64,000 nucleotides of DNA from Allacma fusca (lineage: Eukaryota; Arthropoda; Collembola; Symphypleona; Sminthuridae). Under the pieces are notes generated by a model that did not search any database, was not told where the DNA came from, and saw only the letters and a list, made by a program, of their open reading frames with translations. The stretch spans positions 49,703,632-49,767,631 of the forward strand of contig OX359246.1 in assembly GCA_947179485.1 (NCBI GenBank), in the 5' to 3' direction. The first letter of the stretch is position 1, and every line of letters begins with the position of its first letter. This document shows, one piece after another, positions 10,049 to 27,500 of the stretch. Made by a program: the position numbers and the translations under genes.

Positions 10049-10152
10049 CGAAAATTTGAGAAAAGAAGGTAAATAACGGATCAACGCCTAGCAACAAAGA
10101 AGGATCCACCTGGGACTCATCCTTCGTACCAAATTGTCAGATGGAGATGTCA
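10049..10152 (+). promoter_or_regulatory. Conserved block A, copy 1
   Basis: About 100 bp matching 20268-20371 closely, centred on AACGGATCAACGCCT, GATCCACCTGGGACTCATCC and GAGATGTCA. It lies far upstream of the first exon in both modules. One frame is partly open in both copies, but by eye about six of ten codon differences change the residue and copy 1 soon hits a stop, so a control element or untranslated exon is more likely than protein code. Confidence 0.5.
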
Positions 10153-11504
10153 TAGAAGGCAGAGAACCTTTTCCTCATGTGAGTATACATTTTTTTCAGT
10201 GGTATAACACCTTTGTAATCATTTGTACATATATTTATATGACAAATATGTTATCTTTCGTTTGCTTTTCTTCTACACATTTCGACTGCCCCGAGCCCTG
10301 ACCTCATCAAATGCTCTGCAACAATGGAATTTATCTTTCATCGCTAAACTGAACGTATAAATCATATATGAACGTATGTACTACGTATACTGCTCATTCA
10401 CCCACCCACAAAACAACAACAACTATCACTGCCTTTTGTACACCGGACTGAATCTATCTGCTACTTGCAGAGCCGTACTGTATTCATTGATTTACTTTCC
10501 TTCCCTTTCAAGTCTTCGGCCTTTGTAACCCCCTCATTCATGTTAGATGGAAGATACAGAGGGTAAGTTTGTACCTTTCGAGCTTTTAACCCTGTATCTT
10601 TTACTTGGCCGTCGGTTCATTGATGTTCACACTGCTGAACAGTTTCCTCGATTTCAAACCCTAACCACTGTATGCATGCAATAATAAAGCATATTTAGTC
10701 ACAAATGGTAGCAAAATCATGAGACTTGGCCTAAATTAAAATTAAGCTTTGCTGATTAAATTAAGCAATATAAAACTGAAAGCCATCTGACCTACCATTC
10801 TGCCCAGCCTAATTGTAACAACTTATCCAAACAGATTGGAAATGTAACAAGAAATTCCCAGCTCTGCACAAGTGTAAATAATTAGTTGGTTAGATAGTAA
10901 CTCTAGCCACATTGTACATAATTCTTGCTAAAACAACAACCCAGTACGTCTAAAAACTTCGTACTATGCACACAGAATAACTACCACGGAGAATAAATCA
11001 AGTAAAAAAAGTGCTCGTATGAGTACGAAAGATGAGAGTAGATAAGGTTGGAGGGATTTGAATGCCTGTGTGAACTTACCTACATGCAAAGGTAAGTGTA
11101 CCTGTAGGGACTGGTGCTGTACATACATAATTGAGAATATTTATAAAAACAAAAAGTGGGGGTGGGGAAAAGTAGTCTAAAATCGAGACTTGGGTTTTAT
11201 TGTGGACATTTACACATGAAGCAATTCAGAGACATGCCATATTCTCATTCCGCATCGATTTTCACTTTGCATATTGTGTGATATGAGGTGAGGTGACTGG
11301 TTACTATAATCTATTAGACCATTATGCACGTACATACATGTTGGAAGAGGTGCAAGTATGGAGCTCTTGAGAGCCAAAGAGTCACCACAGCTACCACCAC
11401 TACTTTATACGACTGTACCACCAAAAAGAGCATATATTCTACGGCAAAGTGGAGTTTTATGGGAACTTCTTCAGTGTGTCTGGATCATGGTATGGAAGGA
11501 AGTT
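10153..11504. other. Module 1 spacer between blocks A and B
   Basis: No coding exon was supported. A possible 16-nt exon at 10547-10562 between an AG and a GTAAGT was considered and dropped because of phase. The counterpart in module 2 carries the 875-bp inverted-repeat element that is missing here. Confidence 0.5.
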
Positions 11505-24500: not shown

Positions 24501-27500
24501 CAAACAGCTAAAACGTTTGTTCATGATTTACCAAACGTAAAATGTGTGGCGACTCCTTGCATAAACCTTTGTATATATATAATAGATATACACAGTTTGA
24601 GGTTGCGTCTGAAGCCTCAGGTTTTAACCCGATTTTCACAAAATCCAATGTGCATGGTTTGAAACCCAAACATCTCATTAGCTTAAGGAAATATCATTTA
24701 CACACTATTTAACGCTAATCTGAGTGAATTGGTAGTAAAATATATGCATACATAATTCAAAATTACGAATCTTTAATTCCGAGTGAAAAATAATAATTTT
24801 GGCGGGATCACATTGTTTAACACATATTTAGCAAACTAACTTTTTCCTTGTTCTTAATTATAAGACACTATTAACTTTGGACACTTACGCTTGCCTATTA
24901 GTTCTATTTATTGTTAATCGGATGTTTGTACATAGCAGATACTAGTTTAATTAATTAGTAGCTATTTACCAATATGTTACATTCATGAGGAACTATTACT
25001 TATAGGTATAATAATATAACCCATATATGTAAGTGTTTACATATATGGGTACGTATATACACGTACGTATACATACATATACATACATATACGTGTACAT
25101 ATTGTACATACACGTTGGTTAATACTCCTTTATAATTGTTGAGATTGAGAATGAAATGATAGAATTTTACATCCAAAGTAGTAAACATTCTTGTTATCTG
25201 AACTTCGCTTCGGTACTCCAAGTCCTTCAGAGAAAAAAAGCAAAGGGCTGAAAGTCGAAATGCATGTAATTACTCGGATACTTGAACTTCTCGACGTAAA
25301 ACAAGGCTTTCAAGTTGTGTAGATACATGTACATCCAGAGTGAAGCATGCATAACAACATATGTGAATACGTGTCAGAGGAGGTACGGAGTTAATACGAG
25401 CATAAAATTCATGATGGCACTTTGAGGGTAGGCAAAGTGGTCTAAACGTCCACTTCTGCTTGACAAATAGTTTTCCCACGGAGGGGGAAGACAAATGCAA
25501 CGATATTGAACTATTTGTTTGCTTTCAGAATGGAAGTAATGGAGACTCATCGTCAACTGAGGATGAATTCACTCATCATCGCAAAGGTAACCGACTCTTT
25601 TCAAATAATACTCAAGTGAAAAGTCAAGGGGACATGTAATATGGTTTGGCAAATCAGTTTATTACATTCAAACATGAATTATTATTATTCATGTTCTGGA
25701 CATACAGATCTAAATAAACATCACTGTCATGGTCTTTATAGAGTTTCTTCGAATGAGCATATCAAGCCTTCTAACTCGAATATTGACACTTTGACATCGA
25801 TTAATTCTGTCTTTTAAAACAAAACGTCGATTCTGACATGCTTTATTTTGATTTCTGAATACAGGAAAACAGCAACGACGAACCAGGTGCTTACAGGTAA
25901 GAATAAAACATCTTATTTTTGTCGTTAAGTGTCTGGCTATTAATTCTCTCCATTTCAAAAAGCCATCCACCAAGCCATGCTTACATGTCAAAGTCTAATC
26001 GAAACCGACTCGACAATGAGAGTACCCCAAAACACTACACAATGAAATGCTTGAAAATGTGGGCGGAGGGAGATAGAGAAGGTGGATCTTCTAAGTAGTT
26101 TTAAGGTTGGCTTCACATTGTATCCTCGTAGGAGAGCATCTTCTCTTGGTACTCCCAACGCATGTTACGACACATGCCATCTCTCCCTTTGGTATGTATT
26201 ACTTGATACGGGGAATGGCAGGGACATGAGATTCGAAGCAGAAGGAAGATAAGATAAACGGACTACTATAGCATAAAATAGTACTAGTACAAACTTGAAA
26301 AAGTCGTAGTGAAAATAGTCCTTTCCCTACACCCCTGCGTCTCACATGTCCTCTTCGGGTGTATGTATGTATATATGTGCTAGATTAAAACCCTCTCCTC
26401 ATATCCTCGTATCATTTCTGTTATCTAAAAGACTTTTTTATTATCTTTACAGAGTGAAGAGGACTCTTCTCAGTCCCACGATGAACTCACCGATTGCAAC
26501 GGTAATATACTAGAGAAGTTACATTCTAAAAATATACTATTTCTGGTTTATTATTATTTCTAGAATAGATTGACTAATAATAAACAGACAACGTATGCAT
26601 GCGGATTCTTAGCTAGTAATAAGTGTCTACACAAACATATCGTAGCCTCTAAGTATAAATTCATTAGCTCTTAAAATGTTCTTACACTAACTACATCATT
26701 AAGCTGGCTTACTCTCTTAGATGAAGTTACTTACTGAAACTCATTACAGCACAAGATTTGGTTAATGCATTTTAACGAGATTCACATACGTATCTGCGTA
26801 AATATAATGTGTAAAATGCAAACAATTATTTAGACTTACTGTTGACCCATGCAAAATCCCCCAACATTGCAATGCGGTCAAGTTACTTTTGAGATAACGT
26901 GTCCAGGAACACATAACCTGTGACATGAGAATTTACCAGGGGTGCCCCAATAACAAGCGCACTACTTCTAATATTATTGACAATGCATTGGCAATACTAG
27001 TCTAGGGCCTCAAATACTTATAATGTAGCTTCCTTAAATCCATCCCGGTTGCAACTACTGTTTACTCCAGATTTCGTAAATACATTTTTAATATCTGACT
27101 CACGTTTGATAAGTTTACAACATCTTTGTTTGGGTTGCTTCAACCGAGGTCCAAGCATGTGTGTGAGCGTCCCTTGAAATCAAAATATTCCAGAAGAGTA
27201 ATGCATACACATTAAGATTTACTGTTGATAGAAAATCGTACACATGTACCAAATATGACTGTAGTAAGAGGTATTTGAGTATTGTGGTATCAAGTAGAAA
27301 TAGGGGAAGCACACATGTGAGCAGGGAATTTAAAAATCAGGAAGAACCAGTAAATATATGTAGGAAGTACTGCGATTAAAAAATAATATAAATGCCGGAA
27401 ACAACTATCCATTGGAGGTTGAGTGCAGAAGTATGTACTTGAGTACGCATTTCTAGCTCATACATTTGGATTACTGGACTGTGTAAAAATATTCGAGGAT

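Follow-up and report, generated by a model that had tools for sequence, protein, structure and literature searches.

The window analysed here is a stretch of 64,000 nucleotides from chromosome 2 (scaffold C8) of the springtail Allacma fusca (contig OX359246.1, positions 49,703,632–49,767,631), and it holds a gene of the MECOM/PRDM16/hamlet family in which two collinear copies of a short 5' module lie upstream of a single zinc-finger body. Unless stated otherwise, features are given in window coordinates; the exons, the blocks and element D of the gene lie on the plus strand. The body, exons 3 to 7 (28237–37295), encodes a hamlet/PRDM16-type protein with N- and C-terminal groups of C2H2 fingers: exon 3 (28237–28627), the first shared exon, provides a linker and one finger, exon 4 (30176–30296) further zinc fingers, exon 5 (33758–35256) zinc fingers and a long linker, exon 6 (35353–35515) C-terminal fingers, and exon 7 (37158–37295) the last finger together with a stop codon read from the sequence. 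Matches to the assembled protein include hamlet, MECOM and PRDM16 proteins and span arthropods to vertebrates, the closest among those listed being three springtail proteins (P0001–P0003) and the best of them an Allacma fusca entry (P0001, 96% over 79% of the query). On this sequence evidence the gene is the springtail hamlet homologue of the family, so that the original prediction of a MECOM/PRDM16 homologue is borne out by its EVI1/hamlet-type finger groups as well as by its protein matches.

That prediction had also placed five landmarks, namely three blocks (A, B and C), a first exon and a 58-nt acidic exon, twice in the same order about 10.3 kb apart, and had proposed a search for collinear matches as a check. 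A blastn comparison of 9–19 kb with 19–30 kb found them: the best four matches are all on the plus strand and collinear, while the remaining rows have expect values (E) of at least 0.027 and as a set are non-collinear. Block A (10047–10152) pairs with 20266–20371 (83%, E 3e-26; ungapped identity 88/106), block B (11505–11695) with 22414–22610 (83% over 199 aligned columns, E 5e-56; ungapped core 132/146), and block C (11998–12075) with 22820–22899 (92.5% over 80 columns, E 3e-27; ungapped core 58/61). The fourth match is an intronic element, D, a sixth landmark missing from the earlier list of five; it pairs 13697–13724 with 24116–24143 (89%, E 6e-4) and, in a longer 33-nt alignment at 85%, 13697–13729 with 24116–24148. 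A second comparison of the modules returned the same four pairs and one extra short pair. The exons complete the series, so that each module runs A, B, C, exon 1, D, exon 2. Exon 1a (12513–12572) encodes 20 residues and ends in the donor AAG/GTATTT, and exon 1b (23129–23194) encodes 22 residues; exons 2a (15104–15161) and 2b (25529–25586) are both acidic and 58 nt long. The similarity between modules was reached by none of 60 DNA shuffles and none of 1000 peptide shuffles, for exon 1 and for exon 2 alike. Offsets between the copies (10219 bp for A, 10909 for B, 10822 for C, 10616 for the ATG, 10419 for D and 10425 for exon 2) make the predicted spacing a fair approximation, and the proposal that exons and flanking blocks were copied together is right.

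Outside the landmarks little similarity is left. A 22-nt island (11057–11078, matching 22243–22263) was reached by none of 60 shuffles, and six other intervals between landmarks are at chance level (10 to 54 of 60). In a search of the whole genome (392,743,791 bases in 91 contigs, with simple repeats and very common words skipped), a query spanning 10049–12000 returned three matches, namely itself, A2 and B2, and block C returned two, itself and C2. Between A2 and B2, module 2 is lengthened by an inverted-repeat element of 875 bp (21151–22025) whose 141-nt arms are 98% complementary; the genome search found no further full copy of it, only three 74-bp pieces on another scaffold (C10).

The exons of the two modules have diverged in the manner of coding sequence. 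The alignment of exons 1 and 2 covers 38 codons, those opposite gaps removed, and shows 21 synonymous changes in 23.0 sites (proportion of synonymous differences, pS, 0.91) and 17 non-synonymous changes in 91.0 sites (pN 0.19), a synonymous excess with a binomial p of 2e-6. With synonymous sites saturated and pN low, the duplication appears to be old, and by this comparison both exon pairs are kept as coding sequence. The non-coding blocks, 83–95% identical between modules, are closer to each other than the synonymous sites of the exons, which points to constraint on blocks A–C or to gene conversion that has kept them alike. Such short non-coding blocks, more alike than synonymous sites that are saturated, make clear candidate control elements, and block C, found in the two modules only, is by its position a candidate core promoter or 5' untranslated region.

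The reading frame sets strict rules for the use of these exons. Each exon 2 is entered in phase 0 and left in phase 1, so a transcript beginning with exon 1a or 1b needs a single exon 2 ahead of exon 3, the one exception being the inclusion of a micro-exon together with exon 2c. Borders of the AG/GT type flank exons 2a and 2b, a 32-nt micro-exon (25865–25896) and a 49-nt acidic exon 2c (26453–26501), and exons 1a and 1b have GT donors. The combinations 1a-2a, 1a-2b, 1a-2c, 1b-2b, 1b-2c, 1b-2b-micro-2c and 1a-2a-micro-2c are open through exon 3, whereas skipping of exon 2, or a direct 2a-2b, 2a-2c or 2b-2c join, gives a premature stop after 34–42 residues; 1b-2b-micro-3 is likewise out of frame, and the micro-exon together with 2c amounts to 81 nt, in frame. 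One of these combinations occurs in a gene model, a partial Allacma protein deposited at NCBI (P0218, from a 21,589-bp contig) that runs 1b-2b-micro-2c-3: its residues 1–22 are exon 1b, residues 23–41 are exon 2b, and residues 42–52 match the micro-exon at 100%, restoring the frame from 2b to 2c. This model shows module 2 used in an annotation, with the third copy in series.

For module 1 the corresponding question is which body it would serve. Searching the genome with the N-terminal finger exons returned the shared body in two matches, one of 101 bits (98% identity) and one of 70 bits (90%); no separate finger body for module 1 was found among the best 150 of 1359 candidates, in which the next match reached 53 bits at 38% identity and others at most 50% over short pieces. 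Since exons 1a and 2a share the coding constraint and no body of their own was found, the best reading is that they would be spliced over module 2 to the shared exon 3.

The third, reduced copy that had been predicted downstream of module 2 stands in part. A B-like block precedes exon 2c: the tile near 26056 (approximate extent 26056–26260 in a three-way alignment) is the best-scoring tile outside B1 and B2 in the window for both B queries, and it scores 35 against B2, where the maximum of 500 shuffles is 27, and 31 against B1, where the shuffle maximum is 33, so that a third copy of B is likely. Exon 2c has the entry and exit phases of 2a and 2b and is 9 nt shorter, both of which fit descent from exon 2, but the peptide tests are mixed (similarity reached by 4 of 1000 shuffles against 2b and by 125 of 1000 against 2a), and the DNA tests (2/60 for 2a with 2c, 3/60 for 2b with 2c) have no bearing on 2c, their best matches falling on its donor edge and beyond it. 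Its origin as a copy of exon 2 is thus unproved. The serial order of P0218 (1b-2b-micro-2c-3) indicates that the third copy probably serves, with the micro-exon, as an in-frame insert of 81 nt rather than as a third start.

PRDM3 and PRDM16 are described as binding RBBP4 through an N-terminal RxKxxxxxK motif (in the accounts given in PMC11602157 and PMC7761934), and exons 1a and 1b both fit the motif as printed, with the lysine at residue 10, whereas starts of the MRSKGRARKL type have it at residue 9. Of the 1358 open ATG-started 10-mers in the window, exon 1a scores highest (5.0; next −3.6) on a profile built from 15 distinct starts of the family. An MRxK start is present in 91 of the 334 proteins compared, a set that includes unrelated zinc-finger proteins and P0218 itself and was drawn from the best 120 of 1437, 120 of 1624 and 120 of 211 matches. 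Exon 1b is a clear copy of 1a, because none of 1000 shuffled peptides reaches their similarity; we take exon 1a to be a family-type start and exon 1b its descendant. A sequence search of the PDB with N-terminal peptides of 30 and 27 residues gave no match. If the motif acts as in PRDM3 and PRDM16, the peptides of both exons would dock RBBP4/NuRD. The proposal that the two modules give proteins with different N-termini holds only in part: neighbouring residues differ, and MRxK...KK and the acidic core SSSxEDEF are common to both, so the difference between modules may lie mostly in the timing and place of the gene's activation.

None of the sequence examined supplies this gene with a PR domain, a point on which the original prediction was silent. 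An exon-by-exon profile search of the genome (PF21549), from which a badly split domain could escape, gave six matches on scaffolds C1 and C12 and none on C8, and the idea that the introns conceal a PR domain was dropped on this profile result. With the N-terminal part of beetle hamlet as query, the genome matched through the fingers only (best 121 of 696 candidates), and the precomputed domains of the Folsomia (P0002) and Orchesella (P0003) proteins include no PR domain. A three-exon PR gene at C1:11.68 Mb was considered as hamlet and rejected, its likeness being limited to the fingers (best finger match 39%). Since PR-minus forms are described as normal in the PRDM family (in the passages of PMC4009873 and PMC12227202 that treat isoforms), the homology stands despite the lack of a detected PR domain. 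Another C-terminal finger block of hamlet type is found some 300 kb off, on the minus strand (C8:50042033–50042908), 94% identical to the fingers of the window and within a 291-aa open frame; tblastn with four hamlet proteins over 50.02–50.11 Mb gave no convincing N-terminal finger or PR exon there. Within the body itself, P0218 and P0001 omit 28 and 23 codons inside exons 3 (28369–28452, the stretch absent from P0218) and 5, though the DNA is open; short introns that keep the frame, or artefacts of the predictions, may account for this.

Taken together, these features are best explained by a tandem-duplicated two-exon 5' cassette in which both full copies are used from their own starts with one shared zinc-finger body, a reading to which we give a probability of about 0.6. 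Within a springtail hamlet gene that lacks the PR domain, A-B-C, exon 1, D and exon 2 would have been copied by an old segmental tandem duplication. The two full cassettes would still be in use, each starting near its block C, with exon 2 of each joined to the shared exon 3, by a 13-kb splice over module 2 in the case of module 1. A third cassette would have decayed to the B-like block and probably exon 2c, now part of the frame-neutral 81-nt insert with the micro-exon. The outcome would be two starts, each under its own control, that yield a similar docking-type N-terminus and differ slightly in the linker, and the benefit would lie in separate control of one regulator. Two starts, as expected of the two promoters originally predicted, are likely because both exon pairs are under coding constraint and either pair could legally be spliced into exon 3.

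Several observations weigh against this reading. None of the 334 proteins compared, drawn from the best matches of each search, begins with exon 1a. The stretch between C and the ATG holds no conserved sequence (its score was reached by 54 of 60 shuffles), and its length is unequal, 438 bp in module 1 and 230 bp in module 2. Exon 1b is outside the best eight on the family-start profile; shuffled peptides reached the similarity to the Orchesella and beetle starts in 95 and 562 of 1000 trials for exon 1a and in 153 and 241 of 1000 for exon 1b, none of which is significant; and the pattern MRxK....K/R recurs at three more sites in the window, presumably by chance. The codon comparison rests on one pair of short exons, 38 codons in all, and the unproved descent of exon 2c bears on the third cassette.

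A rival reading has one promoter only, upstream of module 1, in which case module 2 would be reached through a splice choice between 2a and 2b, and its blocks A–C would be enhancers or leftovers. The combination 1a-2b-3 is in frame, and A–C could be enhancers, their promoter role being that of candidates. Exon 1b, in turn, has its own ATG and shares the coding constraint, a transcript joining 1a-2a to 1b breaks the frame, and the deposited P0218 begins at 1b, all of which make a single promoter unlikely. A somewhat less probable account has module 1 as the remnant of an upstream whole-gene tandem copy that lost its body and is now dead or a non-coding transcript. Duplicates of the hamlet type do occur, and the 94%-identical C-terminal finger block some 300 kb off on the other strand is at hand as an example, but a pN of 0.19 at a pS of 0.91 is not expected of dead coding exons, and the finger-exon search passes from the shared body directly to a match of 53 bits at 38% identity (best 150 of 1359 candidates). 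As to its origin, module 1 may nevertheless have lost a body and later captured the shared one.

Another explanation, to which little weight can be given, is that the blocks travelled with the exons as mobile-element, structured-RNA or coding sequence. Transposon-derived DNA is present nearby, and block B offers a plus-strand frame open for 63 codons in copy 1, with pS 0.22 and pN 0.06 between copies (p 0.025 before correction for 18 frames, of which it is one); this frame is broken by stop codons in copy 2, and block B was rejected as coding. Block A has no convincing coding frame: 17 residues of one frame are readable in both copies, yet there are stops in all six pair frames, and its best plus frame (pS 0.29, pN 0.15) has a ratio that is not clearly coding-like. 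In block C two minus-strand frames are stop-free over 61 nt, the three differences there being too few to judge coding by. A, B and C fold no better than shuffled sequence (z −0.43 to 1.39), an Rfam scan of 9–29 kb gave 12 matches, all under the gathering score, and A–C have no match in the genome search beyond their own copies. Least credible is an assembly artefact, an unmerged haplotype or mis-join. The same scaffold does hold such a case: about 17 kb of the window (36225–53268) recur at C8:49790548 to at least 49807631 with 99.74% identity, directly after a gap of 200 N (49790348–49790547), the simplest reading being a contig overlap that the assembly left unmerged. This recurrence takes in exon 7 only and not the modules, which do not align outside their islands and have saturated synonymous sites; the window is free of N, and exons 1b–2b are also present in a separately deposited contig.

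The remaining features of the window lie to either side of the gene. Upstream is an element of the long interspersed nuclear element (LINE) type (3916–8076) with an open endonuclease/reverse-transcriptase frame of 1093 aa. Downstream are a tandem repeat with a unit of about 80 nt (42313–42675) and, on the minus strand, a gypsy-type element (48989–54223) in which the two frames scanned encode an integrase and a reverse transcriptase/RNase H.

The tandem-cassette arrangement proposed for Allacma hamlet has its nearest counterpart in the chelicerate sDscam genes, where a promoter and two (or four) 5' exons form a duplicated unit spliced to constant exons, and for which gene shortening followed by 5' duplication is proposed (both as set out in portions of PMC4835542). 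As in arrays of this type, first exons and the blocks that flank them are repeated in tandem ahead of one shared body in Allacma hamlet. By frame and splice borders each of its units could be spliced in frame to the same constant exon, and the 1b unit is present in a deposited model. The sDscam genes encode cell-surface molecules, have from 2 to at least 40 cassettes and are described with RNA support, whereas the Allacma gene encodes a transcription factor and has two full cassettes and one reduced one. Tandem first exons, each with its own promoter, are joined to a common downstream set in UGT1 (as outlined in PMC1885805), and variable tandem first exons share such a set in the clustered protocadherins (as outlined in PMC3325998). 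Unlike these large first-exon clusters, Allacma hamlet has two tiny exons per unit. The unit of UGT1 and the protocadherins is one big exon.

Closer relatives vary their N-termini by other means. PRDM3, PRDM16 and fly hamlet make isoforms from alternative promoters or splicing (sections of PMC4009873 and PMC12227202), and Allacma hamlet resembles them in drawing N-terminal variants from one locus of the same gene family; the variants described there are PR-plus against PR-minus and not copied first exons, whereas both Allacma starts are PR-less. Insect hamlet and CG10348 are whole-gene duplicates, and all homologues are said to contain a PR domain (in the relevant part of PMC2889900), so that duplication within the hamlet family is shared with Allacma while the springtail proteins differ in having no detected PR domain. 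The Folsomia candida and Orchesella dallaii proteins, one per species (cluster representatives, P0002 standing for five sequences), have the same PR-less type of body; P0003 starts MRCKPVARKV, followed by an NG..SSS acidic stretch, P0002 begins MGLA without MRxK, and an acidic stretch precedes the body in all three springtail proteins. The earlier statement that the layout is undescribed in this family agrees with our finding no report of it for PRDM or hamlet genes in the open-access literature, from which subscription journals are mostly absent, alongside the similar arrays of sDscam, UGT1 and protocadherin.

Genes of the hamlet/PRDM16 type set cell fate, and the choice of N-terminal isoform matters in flies and vertebrates. 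A start with a likely corepressor-docking peptide that has been copied whole would offer a natural test of control over this peptide without a PR domain, and cassette-type 5' duplication, described for surface molecules and enzymes, would reach a developmental regulator as well. A wider and decidedly tentative scenario is that hamlet lost the PR domain in springtails and, in the Allacma lineage, turned into a tandem 5'-cassette gene, in which the duplicated starts might give a separately controlled NuRD-docking repressor, and the decayed third cassette and micro-exon might have been recruited as an optional insert by which the linker joining the docking peptide to the fingers is altered. If true, the PRDM family would have in the tandem-cassette hamlet of Allacma its first described array of this kind.

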